A stretch of 39,821 nt of DNA. Source: Acholeplasmataceae bacterium (lineage in GTDB: Bacteria; Bacillota_I; Bacilli_A; Acholeplasmatales; Acholeplasmataceae). The position numbers and the translations under genes are program-made. The DNA is taken from NCBI GenBank assembly GCA_028690555.1, contig JAQVBA010000004.1, positions 1-39,821 on the forward strand, written 5' to 3'. Below are positions 19,035 to 33,566 of the stretch, in pieces (the stretch's first letter is position 1; every line of letters begins with the position of its first letter). The notes under the pieces are model-generated. The model saw only the letters and a program-made list of their open reading frames with translations, ran no database searches and was not told the DNA's origin.

Positions 19035-21965
19035 TTAGTATCCTCCCTTTCTATTGACAAGATTGACATTGAATCGACGTCCCTCTACAATGACTGTAAA
19101 GAAGTCAATGGAAGCTTTACCATCTTTTGTCGTTCTGACGGTGACGGTATAACGTGCTGGGATTTTTGTGTTAATGAGGCTTTGATATTCAATTTCAGCA
19201 TCTTCAATGAGTGTTGTCAAGTTACTGTTGATATCATAAGATTTTTTAGCAGGAACGATGACTTCTTTTTGATTAAATCCAACGGCAAGCTGTTGTTCAA
19301 CCAAAATAGTGGTTGTGTGACTTAATGCAAAAGCAATGCCAGAAATAATTTCACCGTGATCTAAGGTTGGACCTTCTGCAGTGGTTAAGATTCGATAGAA
19401 CTTTTCTGGATCAAGATCAACTAAAGTTAATCCTGATTTTGGATTTGCACTATGGATGACAATCAGATCAGGAGTTCCATTTTCACCAGCAATCTTAAAA
19501 GCAACCGCTTGATCACCACTATCTGTTTCTAAGAATGAAAGACGTGTATTGATGCTTGATGCATCGGTCATTCTAAAGTGATCATAGGTTTTTCTAATTT
19601 GAATAAGTGCTTTATAGTATTCAAAAACATCGACATAATCGGCTTTTCGATCCCATCTTAGTTGATTGACATCATCAGGTGATTCATAGGAATTATGATC
19701 AAACCCACCGGTAGGTAGAGGTTTTGAACGCATCATTTCAGCACCTGCATGAATAAATGGGATTCCTTGAGCCGTTAAAATGATGGCATTTGCTTGAATT
19801 TGCATATCGCGAATATATGTATTAGATACACCGGTAAGTTTTAATTTGTCGTATAAGGTATTATTATCATGAGCAGTGACATAATTGATGGTTTGATCTG
19901 GTGTTTCTGCAAATGTTGAGACTTCAGTAATCCCAGGATATGAAATTCCACCTACTATCCCATATTTCACTTTTTGGATGATGCCATCATTGACTTTACC
20001 TTGAACAAATCCACCTTCGTTTGCTGTCCACACAGAACCTTTGACTGCATCTCTTGTGTGGTCATTAAATGCGCCGACATGATTTAGATTAGATAAGTTT
20101 TGTTGGTTGGCTGAGATGGATGAATCCATTTGAGAAGTACCACCCATCCAAGGTTCACCATAAACAACTATCGTTGGATCAATTTCATATAACTTTTCTT
20201 TAATTAAATTCATGGTTTCAACATCATGAAGCGCCATAAGATCAAATCTAAAACCAGAAAGATTATATTCATTGGCTAAGAATAAGACTGAGTCCACCAT
20301 AAATTTTTGCATCATCGATCGTTCTGAAGCTGTTTCATTACCCGTACCAGAACCGTTAGAGAATCCTCCATCATTTGTCAGTCTATGATAATAACCAGGA
20401 ACGATTTTATGGAAATTCGAGGTTTGAGATTCACCGGTATGATTATAGACAACATCCATAATGACTCTAATATCCTCATTGTGAAATGCTTGAATGACTT
20501 GTTTAAATTCATTAATTCTGGTGCCACCATCAAATGGATTTGTTGCATATGAACCTTCTAGTGTATTAAAGTGATAAGGCATATAACCCCAGTTAAATAT
20601 TTTCGTATAGTTTGGGTTCTCATAAGCTTCAATTTCATCCACATAACCAAAATCAAAAATAGGGAGAAGTTGAACGGCATTGACGCCTAGTTCAACAATG
20701 TGATCAAGACCCGTAGTTACAGTTTTTCCATCTTTTGAAAAAGTGGTACCTTTTTCAGTAAGACCTAAAAATCTTCCTCTATAGGATTCATGACCATTCC
20801 ATGAACTGTGCGTCGTTAAATCTCTGACGTGAAGTTCATAGACTATATAATCTGTTAAATTTGTAATCGTATCCGGACGGCTGTTATATGTCCAGTTTTC
20901 AGGATTTAATTGACTAAAATCAACAATCATGCCACGAAGTCCATTTGCACCTGTGGAATAGGTATAAGGATCTGTGACTTCATAAGTATTGCCATCATTG
21001 GTGACACTAAATGTATAGTATTTGCCATGAAGATGACCATCTAGTTTGATTTCCCATGCACCATTTTCAATTTGGTTTAACTCATGGGTTTCATAAGGTG
21101 TTTCTTCTAAATGCTCACTTCCAGAATTATCATAATTTGGATGTCCTTGGTTGTATAAATTTAAGGTTACACTTTCACTAAGGGGTGCCCATAATCTAAA
21201 GATGGTTTGATTATTATCAAATGAGACTCCAAGCGTACCAGTATACGTATAAGCTTGTTCAAACATTGGTGTATCATAAAGATTTTCTAAGGATACAACT
21301 TTTTCTAAGACACGATTATCTGGATAGGTTGCAACAACTTTATACGTTTTTTGAATATCCAAGTTTTCAACTTCGATGGCAAAACTTCGTGTTGTAGGAA
21401 TACCATTGTAAATTTCTACATCGCTTTCAAATATTTGGAAAGCTTCAGGAATTTCAGAAACAACGGTGATAATACGTCCATCTTCATCAAAATAACTTCT
21501 AAGGATCTTTGCTCGATAATCAGGAATATGATTTGCTAAATCAGAAGTAGAAGTACCGATTCTTAAATCTCCTTCAACAAAATAAGCATGAGCCTTTCCA
21601 TCGATGATTTCGATATTTGTTAGATCAATAAAGCGATCGCCACCCACTTCACGATATCCCTCCCATCCACCTTGCTTAATAATGATACCTACTTGGGTCG
21701 TTTCTGGGAAATTGGGATAGCTTTCAGTTAAATTGACTTCATAAAATACACCGTGTTCATCTTTGTTTTCTATGGAGAAATCAAATTGAACACCACCTCC
21801 ATCTTTTGGAGCTTTTGGCCATAGCCAGAAATTAAAGTTTTCATAGTTGTCATCATAACGGTAATAATGAACAACCAAATGGGTAGGGAGCGTACTTGCT
21901 AACGTTGTGATGCCAAATCCAAGCGTTATAAACAGTAAAAGCACCCATGCGACTAGTTTTTTCAT
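19035..21965 (-). CDS. Secreted type I pullulanase (N-terminal CBM41/PUD-like, GH13_14-like)
   Basis: Signal peptide 'MKKLVAWVLLLFITLGFGITTLAS'; 'LVVHYYRYDDNYENFNFWLWP' CBM41; 'NWGYMPYHFNTLEGSYATNP', 'VIMDVVYNHTGES', 'SGFRFDLMAL', 'VVYGEPW', 'TAHDN'. ORF track start 21980; ATG 21965 follows GAGGAGG. Confidence 0.92.
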   Translation of the reverse strand: MKKLVAWVLLLFITLGFGITTLASTLPTHLVVHYYRYDDNYENFNFWLWPKAPKDGGGVQFDFSIENKDEHGVFYEVNLTESYPNFPETTQVGIIIKQGGWEGYREVGGDRFIDLTNIEIIDGKAHAYFVEGDLRIGTSTSDLANHIPDYRAKILRSYFDEDGRIITVVSEIPEAFQIFESDVEIYNGIPTTRSFAIEVENLDIQKTYKVVATYPDNRVLEKVVSLENLYDTPMFEQAYTYTGTLGVSFDNNQTIFRLWAPLSESVTLNLYNQGHPNYDNSGSEHLEETPYETHELNQIENGAWEIKLDGHLHGKYYTFSVTNDGNTYEVTDPYTYSTGANGLRGMIVDFSQLNPENWTYNSRPDTITNLTDYIVYELHVRDLTTHSSWNGHESYRGRFLGLTEKGTTFSKDGKTVTTGLDHIVELGVNAVQLLPIFDFGYVDEIEAYENPNYTKIFNWGYMPYHFNTLEGSYATNPFDGGTRINEFKQVIQAFHNEDIRVIMDVVYNHTGESQTSNFHKIVPGYYHRLTNDGGFSNGSGTGNETASERSMMQKFMVDSVLFLANEYNLSGFRFDLMALHDVETMNLIKEKLYEIDPTIVVYGEPWMGGTSQMDSSISANQQNLSNLNHVGAFNDHTRDAVKGSVWTANEGGFVQGKVNDGIIQKVKYGIVGGISYPGITEVSTFAETPDQTINYVTAHDNNTLYDKLKLTGVSNTYIRDMQIQANAIILTAQGIPFIHAGAEMMRSKPLPTGGFDHNSYESPDDVNQLRWDRKADYVDVFEYYKALIQIRKTYDHFRMTDASSINTRLSFLETDSGDQAVAFKIAGENGTPDLIVIHSANPKSGLTLVDLDPEKFYRILTTAEGPTLDHGEIISGIAFALSHTTTILVEQQLAVGFNQKEVIVPAKKSYDINSNLTTLIEDAEIEYQSLINTKIPARYTVTVRTTKDGKASIDFFTVIVEGRRFNVNLVNRKGGY

Positions 21966-21984
21966 AATGAACCTCCTCAAGTTT

Positions 21985-22148: not shown

Positions 22149-23963
22149 ATGAAGAAAGTATTATTAGTTCTTCTACTTGTTGCAGCATTCGGTCTCTTCG
22201 GAGTTCGTGCATTTGCAGAAGGAGAAGGTACAGGAAACGTAGTTATTCATTTCAAAGCTTGGGATGAAGACTATACTGAACTCGGTTCATGGGCTTGGGG
22301 CGGACCTGCCGCAGGTAAAGTTTATGATGGACTCGATGATTTCGGTGCATACTGGGAATACAACGATATTCCAATTGATGTTGAAATAGGATTTATTGCC
22401 GTCCTATGGCCAGGTGGTGCAGGCCCAAATTGGGATGCTAAACTAACTGGTGATGTGAAGATTGCTCCGAATTCAATTGTAGAAGGTGAAACAACGCACA
22501 TTTATGTATTTGAAGGTGCAGTCACTAGTGATGATCATCCAGGGTATTATATTGCTCAACCAGATAAATTAAATATGCTTGTGATTTATTATGACTCAAC
22601 AGGAGCATATGAAGAAAAACTTGGTGTCCATGCATGGGGTTGGGTTGATATCGCACCAAGTTGGGGCGATCCATATCCAATGACAAATGCTGGTAAAACA
22701 GCTGCTGGATTAGATGTTAAAGCATTAATGCTATCTGCGGATGCAGCAGGTGCCGGTTTATTAGTTTATGCTGGCGATGATGCAACAAAGAAAACTGGCG
22801 ATGTGAAGCTTGATGATTCAGGCGCAGCTGTTGCTGGTGATGTTGGTATTGCATATGTCGTTGGTAAAGGTGATGCTTACACTGCAGGTGATAACGTATT
22901 CTATAATGATTACGCAGCATTTGCTGAAGAAGCATTCTCATTTAAGTTAATGGCATTTGATGCTGCTGAAATGAGTGGTACTTATGCAGTTGATCCACAA
23001 ACTATTATTGTGAAGACAAGTGCTCCAATTGCTTCTCCATATCCAACAGCAGATGATAAAGATGCAGCAAGAGCTATTATTGAAAGCTGGTTCAAAGTGT
23101 ATGAAACAGGTTCAACTACGCCACTTGCAATTGAAAGAGTTGACTTTGCATCATCTAATACAACATTGAATCAATTCGTTGTCATTTTAGAAGATGAAAT
23201 GGATAACACTAAGAATTACGAATTATTCTTCAACTTGAATCAACCAGATGAAACATTAGAAGTTGCAAAAGAAATTTCAGTGACTATTAATGTTACAGTT
23301 CCTGAAAATACACCTGAAGGTGCAGCAATTAGTCTTGCTGGTAATATTACAGGTAACGGATGGACTCCTGGTCTTGAAGCGTTTACTGCAACTCAAGTTG
23401 GCGATACACTTGTTTACTCAGTGACATTCAATGTTTCAGTGACGGATCCATTTACTAATTTTGAATACAAATGGACAAGAGGTTCATGGGATAATGATGA
23501 ATTCATTGCTACAAACCGTCCATTAGTAATTCCAAATAACGTGGATTCAATCGTATTTGAAGATGAAGTAGAAGCTTGGAAAGACATTGATGCTCCTGCT
23601 GAACAATATGATGCTCCAGTACGTGTAGCAACATTAAATGTTAAAGCATCCATTATGCTTGCCATGGATACTGAAGCTCCAGAAATTCAATTCATTTCAC
23701 CAACAAATATCGTAGGTAAAGATGCATCTGAAAGAATTATTGAAGTTGCTTGGGGTGTTCCATTCAATCAAAACTCATTCCCAAGATTTAGAGCAACTGA
23801 TGATCGTGATGGCGATTTAACTTCATTCGTATTCGTACCAAAAGGTGATTTCTCGGTATTGAATACAGCAAAAGAAGGCGACTACACAATTATGTTACAA
23901 GTCAGCGACAAGTGGGGTAATGTCACTCAAGAGACATTCATCTTCCGTGTCGTTAAGGAATAG
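22149..23963 (+). CDS. Secreted non-catalytic multidomain starch-binding protein (CBM41-like, starch-binding-like and DUF5011-like domains)
   Basis: Signal peptide 'MKKVLLVLLLVAAFGLFGVRAFA'; 'NVVIHFKAWDEDYTELGSWAWGG'; 'ISVTINVTVPENTPEGAAISLAGNITGNGW...FEYKWTRGSWDNDEFIATNRPL'; C-terminal 'RATDDRDGDLTS...EGDYTIMLQVSDKWGNVT'. No GH13 catalytic motifs, lipobox or C-terminal TM. Confidence 0.7.
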   Translation: MKKVLLVLLLVAAFGLFGVRAFAEGEGTGNVVIHFKAWDEDYTELGSWAWGGPAAGKVYDGLDDFGAYWEYNDIPIDVEIGFIAVLWPGGAGPNWDAKLTGDVKIAPNSIVEGETTHIYVFEGAVTSDDHPGYYIAQPDKLNMLVIYYDSTGAYEEKLGVHAWGWVDIAPSWGDPYPMTNAGKTAAGLDVKALMLSADAAGAGLLVYAGDDATKKTGDVKLDDSGAAVAGDVGIAYVVGKGDAYTAGDNVFYNDYAAFAEEAFSFKLMAFDAAEMSGTYAVDPQTIIVKTSAPIASPYPTADDKDAARAIIESWFKVYETGSTTPLAIERVDFASSNTTLNQFVVILEDEMDNTKNYELFFNLNQPDETLEVAKEISVTINVTVPENTPEGAAISLAGNITGNGWTPGLEAFTATQVGDTLVYSVTFNVSVTDPFTNFEYKWTRGSWDNDEFIATNRPLVIPNNVDSIVFEDEVEAWKDIDAPAEQYDAPVRVATLNVKASIMLAMDTEAPEIQFISPTNIVGKDASERIIEVAWGVPFNQNSFPRFRATDDRDGDLTSFVFVPKGDFSVLNTAKEGDYTIMLQVSDKWGNVTQETFIFRVVKE

Positions 23964-23974
23964 GAGGTCCAATC

Positions 23975-25309
23975 ATGAAAAAATTATTAACAGTACTAGT
24001 TGTATTACTAGCTGCATTTGCACTTGTTGCATGTGGACCTAAAAATGAAGGCGAACTTATTGACTTCGGTGACACATTCGTTCAAAAATCAAAAATCCGT
24101 GTTTGGATTGATGATGAAAATGGCGAATATATGGAAGCAGTCATTGCTGAATTTAACAAATTATATCCAAATATCGTTGTTGAACATCAACACATGGGTT
24201 CAGTTGATTCACGTGAATTATTAAAGACTTTCGGTCCTTCTGGTAATGGTGCTGACGTCTTCCAATTCCCACATGACCATATGGCTCAAGCGGTTTTAGA
24301 AGATTTAGTTTATCCACTTCCAGCTGCGACTCAAACATTATTAAACGAACGTGCACATGAACTTGGTATGAGCATTGCAACGTTAACTTATGACGAAATT
24401 GCTAAATCTTTCGATCCAGCATCTCCAAATGCTGTTGAAAGAGTTTATGGTGTTCCAATGAGTGTTGAATCCGTTGGCTTATATTACAACACTGATTTAG
24501 TGACTTCTGTTCCTACAACTTACGAAGCTTTATTAGCTGAAGTTGCTGCATGGAATGCTGAAGCTGCAGCAGATGGTTCTGGCCGTACGAATGCTGAAGC
24601 AGGTTTATTCGGTCTTGCAATATCAAGCCATTGGGCAGATAGTTATTTCAATCAACACATTTATTCAGCATTTGGATTCTATCCATTTGGTGATGAATTA
24701 AATGATCCTTCTGCCGTTGGTTATGTCAATGCAGCAGACGCACTAACTTGGATGATTACTGAACTTAAACCATTAACAACTGGTACAGGTAACCATAACT
24801 CAGTGACTGGTGGAACAAACTTTGAAGAAGGTAAAATTCCTTATATCATTGCTGGTCCATGGAACATGGAAGCTTATGATGCAGCAGGTGTAAATTACGC
24901 AGTTGCTCAAATGCCAACGATTAATGGCGAAGCTACACAAACATTTGCTGGTGCAATTATTGCAGCTGTTTACAAGTATTCAGAAAATAAAGAAGATGCC
25001 ATTAAGTTTGTTGAATTCTTAAATTCTGATATCGCAATGGAACTTCAATATCAATTCAAGAAGAAATTACCAGCACTTAAATCAGATCTACTTGCAAATA
25101 TCGAAGGTGTTAGTGATAATGCGAAGTTATTAGCAATGTCACAACAATTAGAAACATCCGTTCCAATGCCAGTCATTCCTCAAGTTACATATTATTGGGG
25201 ACCAGGCGAAACAATGGTTATTGATGTTTGGAATAATGGTAAGGCAGTTGCAGACGCAGTTGCTGATGCAGAAAAATCTTATCGTACATTAGCTGGTTTA
25301 GCTAGTTAA
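23975..25309 (+). CDS. Maltodextrin-type ABC transporter substrate-binding lipoprotein
   Basis: Lipobox 'AAFALVACGPK'; 'IRVWIDDENGEYMEAVIAEFNKLYPNIVVEHQHMG', 'ADVFQFPHDHMAQ', 'EGKIPYIIAGPWNMEAY'. Confidence 0.9.
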   Translation: MKKLLTVLVVLLAAFALVACGPKNEGELIDFGDTFVQKSKIRVWIDDENGEYMEAVIAEFNKLYPNIVVEHQHMGSVDSRELLKTFGPSGNGADVFQFPHDHMAQAVLEDLVYPLPAATQTLLNERAHELGMSIATLTYDEIAKSFDPASPNAVERVYGVPMSVESVGLYYNTDLVTSVPTTYEALLAEVAAWNAEAAADGSGRTNAEAGLFGLAISSHWADSYFNQHIYSAFGFYPFGDELNDPSAVGYVNAADALTWMITELKPLTTGTGNHNSVTGGTNFEEGKIPYIIAGPWNMEAYDAAGVNYAVAQMPTINGEATQTFAGAIIAAVYKYSENKEDAIKFVEFLNSDIAMELQYQFKKKLPALKSDLLANIEGVSDNAKLLAMSQQLETSVPMPVIPQVTYYWGPGETMVIDVWNNGKAVADAVADAEKSYRTLAGLAS

Positions 25310-25385: not shown

Positions 25386-25397
25386 ATGGAGGGCAAC

Positions 25398-27743
25398 ATG
25401 AAGTTTATGAGTGTGTTAAAAGCAATTTTGTCAGGCTTAGTATGGGGACTAGGTCAACTTTTCAATAGGCAATATTTCAAAGCCTTATTCTTTTTTATTT
25501 TTTTCGTGGGGTTTATCTTAATTGAATTATTAACAGGTAGTTATTTCATAGAGAAAGATGCATATGATAAATTACCTGGTAAAAATTTTGGTGATAATTG
25601 GGTTCAAGAAGGATTTTTACCAGAATATTTTGAAAACTCATTAAGTGATGGTGGCTATCAGCCATTTGAAGATTACTTGCTTGAAATTGGCGGTGCTGAT
25701 CAACTAGATGAAACTGCATTTGTTGCATTTTTAGCTCGTGATTTACAAGAAAATAATCCAATTACCTATACGAATCTATTAACCAATCAGATCACTTTGC
25801 AAGATGATTTTGATGAAACTGGGATCGTTCATATCAACCGAAAACAAAATCTTTTTAAAGATAGTCAAGGATTGTACTATGTTGAACGAAATATTACATT
25901 AGAAGACGGAAGCAATAAAAAAGAATACATTGAAACAACACCACTCTCAGGGGTTTTAAATGAAAGTAATGTGTTATTAAGTACTGATGGACTCACGCCA
26001 TTTAACAAGAGTGGTGAGGTGTTCAAAAGCGGTTCTAGTTTGTATGTTAGAGCTGCTGATGGTGGTATTAATGTTTACATCAATATTTCGACTGAACAAC
26101 TTGAATCTGTCACTTCCCCAACAAAAGTGAATGTTCAAGGACCGATTTATGTAAAAAATAATGAGATTTTCGAATACTATGAAGCTGGGCTCATGTATAA
26201 TTCAGTTCGCTTGCAATATTTGGAAACACCATTTTTTGTTAACTTTAGACAAGCCATGTTCTATACTTATTCTTATGCATGGAACGAATATAATAATAAT
26301 GATTATACGCGCTTAATGCTTAGGGTCTATTTAGATTTAAATCCAGAATTAAGAGATCAATTTAGAACAGACTATAATAATTTCTTCTATGATAATGCGG
26401 GTCTTTTTGTAAGAGGCTATTGGGCTGTTGGAACACTTGGTGTTGCACACAAAGTCAATTTCACGGGTCATGCTGCTTTAAATGATGCGATGATTGGAAC
26501 GCAAAGCTCTCCATTTAACTTGATTGGTAAAGTGACGATTTTAGAACCCATTCCAATTCAAGGACACGTTTCAACGATGCTACTCTTAGAAGGTTTAATT
26601 GGAGTCATCTTGTCATTATTCTTCTTTATCTTTGGTTTCTGGAGCATTCGTGATGCGTATAAGATTAGTGAGAAGAAGCGTTTAAACCAAGAAGTTGTTA
26701 ATGATAAAGAGTATTTTAAAGATGTTTATGAATCCGGATTTGAATATATCGTTTTATCTCCTGCTATCTTTGTTTTAGCATTTATTTCGATTATGCCGAT
26801 TGCATTTGGTTTTGTCATTGCATTTACTAGTATTTCAGGGAATGAATCGATGATGAACACCTTTGATTGGGTAGGATTTAAAAACTTTCTAGCGCTTTTT
26901 AATTTTACATCAGGACTTGGAGCTTCCTTTGGACAAGCCTTTTGGCGTGTCTTATTATGGACAGTTTTATGGGCAATCTTGTCAACCTTTACAGTATTCT
27001 TCGGTGGATTTATCCAAGCACTTATTTTAAATAGTGAACGTGTTGTGTTTAGAAAATTATGGCGAACTATATTGATTTTGCCTTGGGCAATTCCTGCCTT
27101 ATTATCACAAATGGTATTTTCAGTTATTTTTAATGAAAATGGCTTTATTAATACATTCCTACAGGATATAGGCGTTTATACAATCTTAAACAACTTAGGT
27201 ATGCTTGGAGTTGATTTCTCTTCACTCTCAGGTATCGATAGGCTCTTTTATTTAGGTGCAGATAACATTCAATGGTTTAGTAATTCCTTTAACTCAACCT
27301 TTGTTAGAACAACCCTAGTTGTCGTTAATATTTGGCTAGGGTTCCCATACTTTATGGCACTTATGACTGGTATTATGACTGCCATTGACTCAACACTTTA
27401 TGAAGCTGCTGATATTGATGGAGCAACGGGTATGCAAAAGATTACAAAGATTACCATGCCACTTGTATTATATTCAACAGCACCCATTTTAATTATGACA
27501 TTTTCGGGGAACTTTAATAACTTCGGGGTCATCTACTTTATTACAGGTGGTGGACCGAATGCCGGACATGCCGGCAGGGGGTTTGCTGGAGATACAGATA
27601 TCTTGATTTCATGGATGTATAAGTTGACAGTTGATTATTCAATTTTCAACATGGCATCCGTCTTCTCAGTTCTAATATTCCTATTTGTGGGATCACTTAC
27701 AGCATGGAATTTATCACGAACTAGAGCATTCCAGGAGGACTAA
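25398..27743 (+). CDS. Maltodextrin ABC transporter permease (MalF-like) with ~345-aa extracytoplasmic insertion
   Basis: C-terminal permease EAA loop 'EAADIDGATGMQKITKITMPLVLYSTAPILI'; 'ALILNSERVVFRKLWRTILILPWAIPALLSQMVFSVIFNENG'. ORF track start 25386; ATG 25398 follows GGAGG. Confidence 0.92.
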   Translation: MKFMSVLKAILSGLVWGLGQLFNRQYFKALFFFIFFVGFILIELLTGSYFIEKDAYDKLPGKNFGDNWVQEGFLPEYFENSLSDGGYQPFEDYLLEIGGADQLDETAFVAFLARDLQENNPITYTNLLTNQITLQDDFDETGIVHINRKQNLFKDSQGLYYVERNITLEDGSNKKEYIETTPLSGVLNESNVLLSTDGLTPFNKSGEVFKSGSSLYVRAADGGINVYINISTEQLESVTSPTKVNVQGPIYVKNNEIFEYYEAGLMYNSVRLQYLETPFFVNFRQAMFYTYSYAWNEYNNNDYTRLMLRVYLDLNPELRDQFRTDYNNFFYDNAGLFVRGYWAVGTLGVAHKVNFTGHAALNDAMIGTQSSPFNLIGKVTILEPIPIQGHVSTMLLLEGLIGVILSLFFFIFGFWSIRDAYKISEKKRLNQEVVNDKEYFKDVYESGFEYIVLSPAIFVLAFISIMPIAFGFVIAFTSISGNESMMNTFDWVGFKNFLALFNFTSGLGASFGQAFWRVLLWTVLWAILSTFTVFFGGFIQALILNSERVVFRKLWRTILILPWAIPALLSQMVFSVIFNENGFINTFLQDIGVYTILNNLGMLGVDFSSLSGIDRLFYLGADNIQWFSNSFNSTFVRTTLVVVNIWLGFPYFMALMTGIMTAIDSTLYEAADIDGATGMQKITKITMPLVLYSTAPILIMTFSGNFNNFGVIYFITGGGPNAGHAGRGFAGDTDILISWMYKLTVDYSIFNMASVFSVLIFLFVGSLTAWNLSRTRAFQED

Positions 27744-27746
27744 GCC

Positions 27747-29132
27747 ATGACAACATTCCAATATATATTAATTTCTTATGTTATCGTTTTAGCCCTTGTT
27801 GTGCACCAAGGTATTGCTTATGACATTGCAAAGAAAAAAGGAATTGAAGGGACAAAAGCGAGATTGATCGCGCTCATCCCAATTTATGGCATCATACATT
27901 TCATGAAAATGGATAATGCACCAGGTGTTGTAGATGAAGAAGTGAGAAATCTTTTTAGCTTTGAAGTGGTTAGTAAACGTATCTTGTTTGATTCACTGAT
28001 TGTTTTACTTGCTTATTTAGTCTTTATACCTATAGCGGTATTACTATATATTTCTTTATCTAATAACTTACTTCAGACTTTACTCATATCTTTTGGTGTC
28101 ATTCTATTATGGCTCGTTCATCAAGGAACTGTTGTAGACTATGCAAGTAAAAAAGGATATGAAGGTATTATCGTTGGACTCATTGGATTAATCCCAATTT
28201 ATGGTTTTATTCATTACATGCGTAAAGAAAAACGCCGTAATGTGTCTAAACAGGCGTTAAGAAATGTGTTTAGTCCCAAAAATTTCTTAGGTCGTGCCCT
28301 CATTTATGGTGAAATAACATTAGTTGCGATTATTGTTATTGTTCCTGTGATCTACATTTTCGGTATGGCGTTTGCGAATTTGAGAAGTAACATTCCAAAC
28401 CAATTATGGCCAGATAATCCATCATTTGAAGCATTCAAATACTTATTTAATGAAACCAATTACTTAAAATGGTATTGGAACACATTAAAGATTGCACTGA
28501 TCAATATGTTTGTCGGTACCATTTTAATTACGGGTGCAGCTTATGTATTTGCGAGATTCCAATTTAAAGGCAAAAAAGCTGGCTTATTAACCATCTTAGT
28601 TTTACAAGCTTTCCCTTCATTTATGGGTCTTATCGCGATGTATGTCTTATTTTGGAAGTTTGGTCTTCTAGGTAAACCAACTGCATTATCGATTCTCTAT
28701 ATTGGGGGTAGTATTCCCGGTAACTTATGGCTTATTAAGGGATTCTTAACGCAAATTCCTAAGGATCTTGATGAATCAGCAATGATAGATGGTGCAAATA
28801 AACTACAAATTTTCTTTAGAATCATTTTGCCACTAGCTGTTCCTATTTTAACATTCGTTGCTGTCTCCATGTTTATGGGTCCTTGGATGGATTATATGCT
28901 TCCAGGTTACTTATTACAATTCTATCCAGAAGGGGCTCCAGCGGATTACGATGTCACCAATCAATGGACCTTGGCTGTTGGATTATTCAAGTTTATTAAT
29001 GACTTGAACTATCAACATTATTCTGCATTTGCTGCTGGGGCACTCTTTGTAGGTATCCCAATTGCAACACTTTATATGGTCTTCCAACGTTACTTAATCG
29101 AAGGTATCATGGCTGGAGCAACCAAAGGTTAA
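27747..29132 (+). CDS. Maltodextrin ABC transporter permease (MalG-like) with duplicated N-terminal membrane module
   Basis: EAA loop 'LDESAMIDGANKLQIFFRIILPLAVPILT'; N-terminal ~180 aa extra region with two copies of 'HQGxxxDxAxKKGxEG...LIPIYGxIHxM'. Confidence 0.92.
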   Translation: MTTFQYILISYVIVLALVVHQGIAYDIAKKKGIEGTKARLIALIPIYGIIHFMKMDNAPGVVDEEVRNLFSFEVVSKRILFDSLIVLLAYLVFIPIAVLLYISLSNNLLQTLLISFGVILLWLVHQGTVVDYASKKGYEGIIVGLIGLIPIYGFIHYMRKEKRRNVSKQALRNVFSPKNFLGRALIYGEITLVAIIVIVPVIYIFGMAFANLRSNIPNQLWPDNPSFEAFKYLFNETNYLKWYWNTLKIALINMFVGTILITGAAYVFARFQFKGKKAGLLTILVLQAFPSFMGLIAMYVLFWKFGLLGKPTALSILYIGGSIPGNLWLIKGFLTQIPKDLDESAMIDGANKLQIFFRIILPLAVPILTFVAVSMFMGPWMDYMLPGYLLQFYPEGAPADYDVTNQWTLAVGLFKFINDLNYQHYSAFAAGALFVGIPIATLYMVFQRYLIEGIMAGATKG

Positions 29133-29542: not shown

Positions 29543-30943
29543 ATGCAAATTGGCAAAAGAAAAAAGCATCAATGGCTAGATGATTTTAGATCAATTAAAA
29601 ATATAGATGATTTTTTTCAATTTTTCTCTAAAGAAAGATTGAGCAAAATCGCATTATACTTACTTATTATATGGAGTGTTATCCCACTTTTTTTAATGAT
29701 CTTAAGTATATTTTTAGATAGAAGTTCGGCATTTTCATTCATGTTCAATAGTGGGAGATTAACCATTATTTGGTATATGCTGATGCAACAAATCGGCTAT
29801 TTAGGTATAATCATGACAGTAATCATTATCCTAAGTAGTTTAAGGAATAAATCAAAAAATAAAATACCAACAAAAATTTATGTTTTTGAACATAAAGTAG
29901 AACTATTCCTTCTTTTGTTTTTATTATGGAGTTTGATTTCTTCGCTATTTTCTAGCGATCAAGCATTATCATTTTTAGGTACGGATTATCGTAAAGATGG
30001 ATGGTTAAGTTATCTTTCTTATAGTGGATTTTTTGGATTAGGATACTTGTTATTTAAAGAAAAAGATATCATTCGATTGTTGAGAGTTTTAGGCACTGTC
30101 GCCTCCATACTTGGGGTGTTATTGATTGTTAATATGGAATCCATTAATGAAATATTCACCTTTTATCATAAGAGCACAGTTTTTTATAATCCCAATCATA
30201 TGGGTTATTATTTAGTAATTTCGATTTTATCTTTAACCTATTTATCGATCAGAAAACCAAAGATTGATATTGATAAGGTCATATGCTATATACTCTTTTC
30301 AATCCTCGTGGTAGCTTTGATTGAAAACGGTTCATTTGGGCCATATATTGCAGTTAGCATGGGATTATTATTTTTAATGATTATGACGTTTGTTTTAAAG
30401 AAAAATAAGATGATTCATTCCATAAGTATCACTATTTTATTTATCGGTATTTCAGTGATTATGAATTTCGAGTCCAGCTTTTTATCTAATGAGACAAATC
30501 ATTTATCGGAAGGTATTGATGATATTATTGAAGACAAAGAAGATGCTGATCGTGCTGGTTCAGGAAGATGGGGTTTATGGACTAATGGTATTGAATTTAT
30601 GTTAGATAAACCGGTTACTGGATACGGGATTGAAAATTTAGAAAATGCGTATCTTGAAGTAGACATTATTCAAGATCGGCCACATAACGAATTCATACAG
30701 ATTGCAGCAACCACCGGTATCGTTGGTTTCATTATATATAGTTGTGCCATCGGTTTTCATTTTCTTGATTTTTTGAATCTGAGAAAGAATATAACCTACG
30801 AACAGATTGGAATCTTTATGATTGTTTTTGGATATTTGGTGTCCTCATTTTTTGGAAATTCGATGTTTTATACCACCCCATTTTTTATGATGATTTTAGG
30901 TTTATCAAAGTCGATGATTTCTAATCAAAAAGTGTTGATGTAA
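29543..30943 (+). CDS. O-antigen ligase (Wzy_C) family polytopic membrane protein
   Basis: Many TM helices; 'NPNHMGYYLVISILSL', 'GSGRWGLWTNGIEFMLDKPVTGYGIENLENAYLE...RPHNEFIQIAATTGIVGFIIY'. Confidence 0.85.
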   Translation: MQIGKRKKHQWLDDFRSIKNIDDFFQFFSKERLSKIALYLLIIWSVIPLFLMILSIFLDRSSAFSFMFNSGRLTIIWYMLMQQIGYLGIIMTVIIILSSLRNKSKNKIPTKIYVFEHKVELFLLLFLLWSLISSLFSSDQALSFLGTDYRKDGWLSYLSYSGFFGLGYLLFKEKDIIRLLRVLGTVASILGVLLIVNMESINEIFTFYHKSTVFYNPNHMGYYLVISILSLTYLSIRKPKIDIDKVICYILFSILVVALIENGSFGPYIAVSMGLLFLMIMTFVLKKNKMIHSISITILFIGISVIMNFESSFLSNETNHLSEGIDDIIEDKEDADRAGSGRWGLWTNGIEFMLDKPVTGYGIENLENAYLEVDIIQDRPHNEFIQIAATTGIVGFIIYSCAIGFHFLDFLNLRKNITYEQIGIFMIVFGYLVSSFFGNSMFYTTPFFMMILGLSKSMISNQKVLM

Positions 30944-31106: not shown

Positions 31107-31154
31107 CTTTTTTATGTCAATGATTCAAAGTGAGATTGAATGTTATATGATAAA

Positions 31155-31174
31155 ATAATAATGTACATTATTAT
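31155..31174. repeat. Perfect 20-bp inverted repeat (palindrome) at glgP 5' leader
   Basis: ATAATAATGTACATTATTAT, directly before AAGGAG RBS at 31175. Confidence 0.8.
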
Positions 31175-31187
31175 AAGGAGTAAACAC

Positions 31188-33566
31188 ATGACACAATCAT
31201 TTCAAAATAAAGAAACATTTAAACAATCGTTTCTTGATCATCTTAAACATGAATTTCATGTTGAATTAAACGATTCAACAGTTTATCAAAGATATACTGT
31301 ATTAGCAAAATTATTAGATGAAACACTGAAAGAAAATTTTATCAAAACAGACAAACATATTCGTGAGCATCATATGAAAAAAGCGATTTATTTCTCGATG
31401 GAATTTTTAATGGGTCGCTTGATTACCAATAATCTTCAAAATAGTGGTCATTACGATGTCGTAAAAGATGCTTTTAATGACTTAGGCATTGATTTAAATG
31501 AAGTTGAAGAAGCTGAAGTAGACGCTGGATTAGGTAATGGAGGGTTAGGAAGGCTTGCTGCTTGTTTCTTAGATTCTGCGGCTTCAACAAATCTTCCACT
31601 TTATGGGAATAGTTTACGTTATCAACATGGTTTCTTTATTCAAGATATCAAAGACTATAAACAAGTCGAATCACCAGATCCTTGGTTAGAACAACCTTTC
31701 ATTTGGGAAGAAAAAAGAGAAGATTTAGCAATCGATATCCCATTATTTGGCTATGTTGAACATACGAGACTGATTAATCCACAATGGATTAAAGCAATCC
31801 CTTATGATGTAAAAATCGTAGGTGACCAAAATGGCGTTGTCACTGGCTTAAGATTATGGAAGACTGTCCCATCTGAACGTCAACATGTACAATCTGATTA
31901 TTATTTAGAGTATTCAAAACGAATTTCTGATGTCTTATATCCAGATGATTCGACAGAAGATGGGAAAACATTACGTTTAATGCAATCCTATGTGTTTAGT
32001 GCTGCAGGGATTAAATCCATTATTCGTGAACATAAAGATCAAGGAAGACATGTTAGAACATTACCTGAATATTATGTATTCCAAATTAATGATACACATC
32101 CAACCTTAGTCATTCCAGAAATGATGCGTATTTTGATGGATGAAGAGCATTTGGGTTATGATGAAGCGTGGGATATTACGACGCGTTCTTGTGCATTTAC
32201 GAACCATACAATTTTAGCTGAAGCTTTAGAAAAGTGGAACAAACAAATCTTTAGAAATCTACTCCCAAGAATTTATGAAATCATTTATGAAATGAATCGT
32301 CGTTTCATTCTTGAATTAAAACAAAATGGAAATTTCAATGATGAACAAATCTATATGATGCAGCTGATTGGAACGAACCATGTGAGAATGGCACACATTT
32401 GTATTTATGGTTCATTTAGTGTCAACGGGGTTGCTGCATTACACACAGAAATTTTAAAGCATATCGAAATGAAAAATTTCTATAAGCTTTATCCGCATAA
32501 GTTTAATAATAAAACAAACGGTATTACCCATCGTCGTTGGCTCATCCATACGAATCATGAACTCACAAATCTTTTGGATCAGACAATCGGATCTTCATGG
32601 CGTAATGATTTGATGGAATTAAAGGCATTTGAAGATTTTAAAAATGATCACATGGTTTTAGATCAAGTTGACAAGATGAAGTTATCTAAAAAACAAGCAC
32701 TTGCAGATAAGATTTTTAAAGAAGAAGGCATCAAGCTTGATGTGCATAGCATCTTTGATATCCAAGTGAAGAGATTACATGAATATAAACGCCAACTGAT
32801 GAATATTTTACATATCATCTATGTTTATCAACGTTTAAAATATGATGAAGCATTTAAAAAGAACTACGTCCCCCATAGCTTTATATTTGGGGCGAAAGCA
32901 GCACCTTCATATTTTATGGCAAAACAAGTGATTGAAATTATCAATCGCGTGTCTGACATTGTCAATCACGATGAAGAAACGAATAATCAGTTAAAAGTTG
33001 TTTTTGTTAAAAATTACAACGTCACTTATGCGGAATATTTAATGCCAGCCGCTGACTTATCTGAACAAATCTCAACAGCAACCAAAGAAGCAAGCGGAAC
33101 TGGTAATATGAAGTTTATGATGAATGGCGCGATTACGATTGGTACATTAGATGGAGCTAACGTTGAAATCGTTGATTTTGCTGGTAAAGAAAATGCCTTC
33201 ATTTTTGGATTAACATCTGAAGAAGTGACACAACATTATCAAAATAATGGCTATATGCCACGAGAAATTTATGACCGCGATGTTAGACTTCAAAAGGCAT
33301 TCCAATTTATTCGCAATCTTCATCCAGATCCACAACACTTTGATTATGTCTTAAATAATTTATTAAATAGTGATTACTTCTTAGTGATGAAGGATTTTAA
33401 TAGTTATGTTGAAGCACATGAAAAAGCGAATGAGGCTTATAAAGATCGAGAACACTGGCTACAAATGAGCGTCATGAATATCGCAAATTCTGGTTATTTC
33501 ACATCGGATCGTACGATCAGACAATATAATGATGATATTTGGAAGTTAAGAAAAATAGAATTTTAA
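31188..33566 (+). CDS. glgP: Glycogen/starch/maltodextrin phosphorylase
   Basis: 'YFSMEFLMGRLITNNL', 'GLGNGGLGRLAACFLDS', 'KEASGTGNMKFMMNGAITIGTLDGANVEI'. ORF track start 31140; ATG 31188 follows AAGGAG. Confidence 0.95.
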   Translation: MTQSFQNKETFKQSFLDHLKHEFHVELNDSTVYQRYTVLAKLLDETLKENFIKTDKHIREHHMKKAIYFSMEFLMGRLITNNLQNSGHYDVVKDAFNDLGIDLNEVEEAEVDAGLGNGGLGRLAACFLDSAASTNLPLYGNSLRYQHGFFIQDIKDYKQVESPDPWLEQPFIWEEKREDLAIDIPLFGYVEHTRLINPQWIKAIPYDVKIVGDQNGVVTGLRLWKTVPSERQHVQSDYYLEYSKRISDVLYPDDSTEDGKTLRLMQSYVFSAAGIKSIIREHKDQGRHVRTLPEYYVFQINDTHPTLVIPEMMRILMDEEHLGYDEAWDITTRSCAFTNHTILAEALEKWNKQIFRNLLPRIYEIIYEMNRRFILELKQNGNFNDEQIYMMQLIGTNHVRMAHICIYGSFSVNGVAALHTEILKHIEMKNFYKLYPHKFNNKTNGITHRRWLIHTNHELTNLLDQTIGSSWRNDLMELKAFEDFKNDHMVLDQVDKMKLSKKQALADKIFKEEGIKLDVHSIFDIQVKRLHEYKRQLMNILHIIYVYQRLKYDEAFKKNYVPHSFIFGAKAAPSYFMAKQVIEIINRVSDIVNHDEETNNQLKVVFVKNYNVTYAEYLMPAADLSEQISTATKEASGTGNMKFMMNGAITIGTLDGANVEIVDFAGKENAFIFGLTSEEVTQHYQNNGYMPREIYDRDVRLQKAFQFIRNLHPDPQHFDYVLNNLLNSDYFLVMKDFNSYVEAHEKANEAYKDREHWLQMSVMNIANSGYFTSDRTIRQYNDDIWKLRKIEF

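Follow-up and report, generated by a model that had tools for sequence, protein, structure and literature searches.

The maltose transporter MalFGK2 serves textbooks as the example of a type I ABC importer, with a subunit architecture that is usually taken as fixed. MalG is expected to have six helices and a short N-terminus in the cytoplasm, in a total of ~280-300 aa; its first helix (TM1) packs on the partner subunit. In E. coli MalF, the P2 loop comes after TM3. Here we describe a MalG of 461 aa encoded at 27747..29132 of a 39,821-nucleotide stretch of DNA (the window) from a member of the Acholeplasmataceae. Acholeplasma-type bacteria have no cell wall. Features are on the forward strand of the window unless stated otherwise.

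The NCBIfam MalG model matches residues 196-461 (E 2.8e-42) with a score of 145 of 261 bits, which is under the equivalog cut-off. The canonical core at residues 212-461 (28380..29129) was delimited using Pfam BPD_transp_1 (PF00528; residues 264-451, E 9.2e-15), alignment A1 and Foldseek, which matches it to E. coli MalG (2r6g_G) with a TMt of 0.80. The EAA-loop signature DESAMIDGANKLQIFFRIILPL (residues 342-363) is intact in alignment A1, and L341, D342, E343, A345, I347-A350, I360, P362 and L363 are invariant in its 36 sequences, as expected for coupling to the ATPase. The malG open reading frame begins 3 bases past the malF stop codon, with AGGAGG immediately 5' of its ATG, and is accompanied by MalF and binding-protein genes. 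This MalG shares its core fold with E. coli MalG (2r6g_G, 9bcr_I), at ~30% identity across ~290 columns, and likewise the intact EAA loop and the operon partners (MalF, binding protein), whereas ~180 aa are added here before TM1 as two repeated units, bringing three additional membrane helices and two LIPIYG hairpins. The fold is not strictly defined by the length of the N-terminus, and the core is otherwise complete; core, EAA loop and operon mark the protein as a MalG, of which the N-terminus makes it a variant.

The operon comprises a secreted surface protein with pullulanase-associated (PUD) domains (22149..23963), a MalE/GanS-type substrate-binding protein (23975..25309), MalF (785 aa, 25386..27743), MalG, a glycogen/maltodextrin phosphorylase (31140..33566) and amylase-family genes. 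The PUD protein, phosphorylase and amylases point to maltodextrin or alpha-glucan as the imported substrate. MalF contains an enlarged extracellular region of ~330 aa (residues 59-391, 25560..26558), which lies between its first two membrane helices, in contrast to the P2 loop of E. coli MalF. The region was modelled with confidence (mostly pLDDT 80-94) and has no match in the PDB, where Foldseek of the MalF model returned the permease core only. An O-antigen-ligase/Wzy-type membrane protein is encoded at 29543-30943, between the importer genes and the phosphorylase, and a 981-aa pullulanase-like protein with PUD and CBM48 domains is encoded divergently from the operon at 19035-21980 on the reverse strand.

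The tandem repeat includes the first transmembrane helix

A preliminary description of this DNA had reported that residues 8-71 and 113-176 of the MalG align without gaps at an offset of 105. The repeat is present at this position with 31 identities in 64 residues, and the interval given for it, 27768-28274, corresponds exactly to residues 8-176. When the protein is compared with itself, offset 105 yields a diagonal score of 188, and no other diagonal exceeds 34. Shuffles that preserved hydrophobic and polar positions gave a mean of 0, an SD of 17 and a maximum of 73 in 20,000 trials, compared with a repeat score of 155. BLASTP of residues 1-106 against 107-211 returned an E value of 1e-20, and the family profiles of the two copies align with an E value of 8.9e-28 (99.8%). 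Self-comparison, BLASTP and profiles thus bear out the claim of an internally duplicated N-terminal extra of ~180 aa.

The extent of the repeat is larger than first noted. The best ungapped self-segment pairs residues 5-106 with 110-211, and residues 72-106 alone give a family-averaged score that peaks solely at offset 105 (37.6, against a mean of -26.5, an SD of 11.2 and a maximum of 4.9 over the remaining offsets). Unit 2 (residues 107-211, 28065..28379) therefore consists of the extra module and the native TM1 of MalG, and unit 1 (residues 1-106, 27747..28064) of the extra module and a diverged copy of TM1. The duplicated unit is thus the module plus TM1, ~105 aa in length. The preliminary description was right about the duplication; its view of the unit as one transmembrane helix plus a hydrophobic segment, outside the permease, does not stand, since the repeat takes in TM1.

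Fold, topology and placement of the module

The MalG was modelled with AlphaFold2 from a 36-row alignment (mean pLDDT 84, pTM 0.63); at this pTM it is uncertain how the modules are positioned relative to the core. Both units show an identical order of helices. The module spans ~75 aa: after one helix comes a LIPIYG hairpin, broken at its proline and set between loops of positive charge. In unit 1 the extra transmembrane helix (residues 3-30, 27753..27836) precedes the hairpin (residues 36-53, 27852..27905), which is modelled as two short helices (36-42 and 47-53) with a break at P45-Y-G and K/R-rich loops on either side; a short helix (63-70) and the paralogue of TM1 (72-105, 27960..28061) follow. 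Unit 2 repeats this order with the extra helix at residues 107-135 (28065..28151), the hairpin at 141-159 (28167..28223; helices 141-146 and 152-159), a short helix at 168-173 and native TM1 at 177-208 (28275..28370). Foldseek of the whole model matched MalG structures over ~290 columns, corresponding to the core alone, which identifies the core as MalG and leaves the extension unmatched.

The distribution of charge provides a well-supported topology for the extension. Loops flanking each LIPIYG segment contain 1.9-2.9 K+R per 10 aa; the value falls to 0.06-0.7 past TM1, where the two units join and at the N-terminus. According to the positive-inside rule, this places the N-terminus outside and both loops inside, with a LIPIYG segment that does not cross the membrane. 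The unit 1 hairpin is probably re-entrant or positioned at the membrane surface, with its flanking loops predicted to be cytoplasmic. Two genomes of one genus (L033 and L034) provide a natural fusion that points independently to this assignment. In their MalG proteins (949 and 948 aa; L033: 4315-7164, forward strand; L034: 4250-7096, reverse strand), a lipoprotein of ~590 aa with an LSGC lipobox and an aBig_2 domain takes the place of unit 1 and is joined directly to module 2. As this head is of a surface-lipoprotein type widespread in the group, the N-terminal side of module 2 should be extracellular.

Each unit would thus pass from outside to inside with its first helix, continue through a K/R-containing cytoplasmic loop, a non-crossing LIPIYG hairpin and an amphipathic stretch, and return to the outside with a TM1-type helix. 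Since TM1 of MalG packs on the partner subunit, the helices that precede it are expected on the side of the complex that faces MalF. There the modules most likely act as a collar of helices at the periphery, which would stabilise both the MalFG dimer and the large ectodomain of MalF. Of the two copies, copy 2 would then matter most, with copy 1 added under weaker constraint. We give about an even chance to this collar role for the two-unit extension of what we take to be a maltodextrin importer.

Distribution, duplication history and selection

The module is not confined to this genome. The two-module MalG is the usual form in the Acholeplasmataceae, with the cultured strains Acholeplasma equifetale ATCC 29724 and Haploplasma modicum ATCC 29102 among its carriers. 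Among 101 relatives, it is found in most orthologues of the host family and of a second family of the order (f5); Paracholeplasma vituli is another named carrier of the module. A minority of these orthologues has one module and a length of ~356 aa, or of 412 aa where an insertion is present, and the lipoprotein fusion occurs in two. In the class as a whole, a match was obtained in 47 of 395 genomes (two of the 47 only at E ~0.003), with one-module proteins of ~355 aa in families f16, f19 and f24, and a few two-module forms. The one-module proteins of these families (e.g., Candidatus Izimaplasma and Mollicutes MAGs) have the same module, the same core and the same large MalF partner, but a single module without a second copy of TM1. 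Among 392 genomes of the phylum, all 27 matches fall in the same class. The module was not seen in the nearest module-less MalG proteins, those of Peribacillus, Gottfriedia, Paenibacillus, Treponema, Clostridia and Vibrio, whose cores are ~35-55% identical and whose N-termini are mostly ordinary and short. The survey of homologues thus shows that the module is not a standard extension of most Firmicutes MalG, in line with the view first taken of it. A Vallitaleaceae MalG of 379 aa (L197, position 5728 onward, forward strand) has an unrelated-looking N-terminal extension with one additional hydrophobic segment.

In a tree of the core only, MalG proteins with the module cluster together, separate from paralogues that lack it (with the exception of L046, a very long branch), and forms with one module are nested among those with two. 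In the module tree of families f1 and f5, every first copy falls on one side of a branch with SH-aLRT 99. Together with the core tree, this describes one duplication in f1 and f5, followed by at least one and probably two losses of copy 1, in one clade and separately in the fusion lineage. When the module trees are widened, L095 (f16) and L104 and L237 (f24) have first copies that group with the modules of their own families. Constraining the L095 first copy with those of f1 and f5 was rejected (AU p 0.022), while a single clade of all first copies was not formally rejected (AU p 0.060); two or more independent duplications are therefore likely. The simplest reading is that the ancestor was a one-module MalG, from which an in-frame tandem duplication of module plus TM1 would have produced the two-module form.

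Both copies are maintained as protein under purifying selection, with copy 1 less constrained and faster evolving. In ten close pairs, dN/dS was 0.06-0.24 for unit 1, 0.02-0.09 for module 2 and 0.007-0.07 for the core, ratios that are rough, several pairs being close to saturation at synonymous sites. The module is real, old and under selection. In a rival reading, unit 1 is a near-neutral product of duplication: as soon as a MalG has the module, copies are added and removed by recombination between repeats, and only module 2 has a job. Consistent with this, unit 1 outpaces module 2 at the protein level in almost every close pair, with a dN that is mostly 2-4 fold higher; unit 1 was lost in the Acholeplasmataceae, as described above; the stretch that replaces it in L105 and L096 is decayed or unrecognisable; and duplications appear to recur in other families. 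Against it, dN/dS of unit 1 is far under 1 in every pair tested, and the unit persists in most of the family. We regard near-neutrality as a real alternative, albeit somewhat less likely than the collar.

The comparisons speak both for and against the proposed collar role. In its favour, at the loci seen, module-bearing MalG with a complete partner is always accompanied by a MalF of 661-885 aa, compared with ~400-690 aa for the partners of module-less MalG. Against it, spirochaete MalF proteins of 633-686 aa occur without the module; as the module-bearing MalG proteins form one clade, the association with a large MalF is single rather than repeated; and as one-module relatives retain a large MalF, copy 1 does not track the size of MalF.

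Other roles and origins considered for the module

The conserved parts of the module, KKGYEG, LIPxYG and KRRN, are on the predicted cytoplasmic side, and phosphorylase and amylase genes are found in the operon. Both would suit a reading in which the cytoplasmic loops and LIPIYG hairpins regulate the importer or dock a partner from the cytoplasm, be it the ATPase, a regulatory protein or an enzyme that belongs to the linked glucan pathway. The EAA loop that contacts the ATPase is intact and canonical, though, and we found neither a known interaction motif nor a module fused to a cytoplasmic domain, which makes a docking site improbable. Roles as a scaffold for the binding protein or as a partner for an unlinked ATPase, both raised in the preliminary description, are guesses. 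The genome encodes a single MalK-type ATPase domain on another contig; an ATPase encoded away from the importer is therefore the usual situation, for which no special module is required.

No significant match to the module was obtained in searches of Pfam, NCBIfam, PHROGs or the PDB, in agreement with the earlier claim that the extra part lies outside the known ABC permease fold. Below the curated cut-offs, residues 1-178 gave matches to VanZ (E 0.0026) and RseC (E 0.013), which were taken as chance. DUF6903 matched 1 of 25 module sequences (E 0.00037). The suggested kinship with DUF5684 (PF18936) was not borne out by its profile. DUF805 (PF05656) was not supported either, as it has only a short motif in common with the module at sub-significant level. 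At the sensitivity used, it is very improbable that the module is a divergent small membrane protein of DUF5684 or DUF805 type fused to MalG: such proteins share a short G...(L)IP..G motif past a basic stretch, which hhalign aligns with the module in the case of DUF805 (1% probability), but they are free-standing, neither family was matched at E<1 by any member of alignments A2 or A4, no DUF5684 match over cut-off occurs in 61 genomes, and free-standing copies of the module are absent at E<1e-5 from the 395 class and 392 phylum genomes, with weaker matches in short or unrelated frames. A search of the literature found no paper describing the MalG extension and no experiment on any member.

Next to the collar reading, we offer a broader and decidedly more tentative suggestion: that this is an undescribed membrane module of ABC importers which, by duplicating repeatedly together with the first helix of the permease, adds outward-facing anchor positions, one of which was taken by a surface lipoprotein in the fusion lineage. 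If so, the fused lipoprotein would tie the capture of surface polymers directly to the import channel. A whole lineage, with cultured Acholeplasma-type strains among its members, possesses a MalG with a repeated, unannotated membrane module and a second copy of TM1, and the annotation of this subunit can be corrected accordingly, ~40% of the 461-aa protein being without a family model. The series of none, one and two modules and lipoprotein fusion is a natural one in which to test how a functional importer copes with additional helices or benefits from them. A further, partly hydrophobic insertion of ~30-45 aa is located in or after the LIPxxG of the second (or only) module in L037, L038, L039, L043, L036 and L111.
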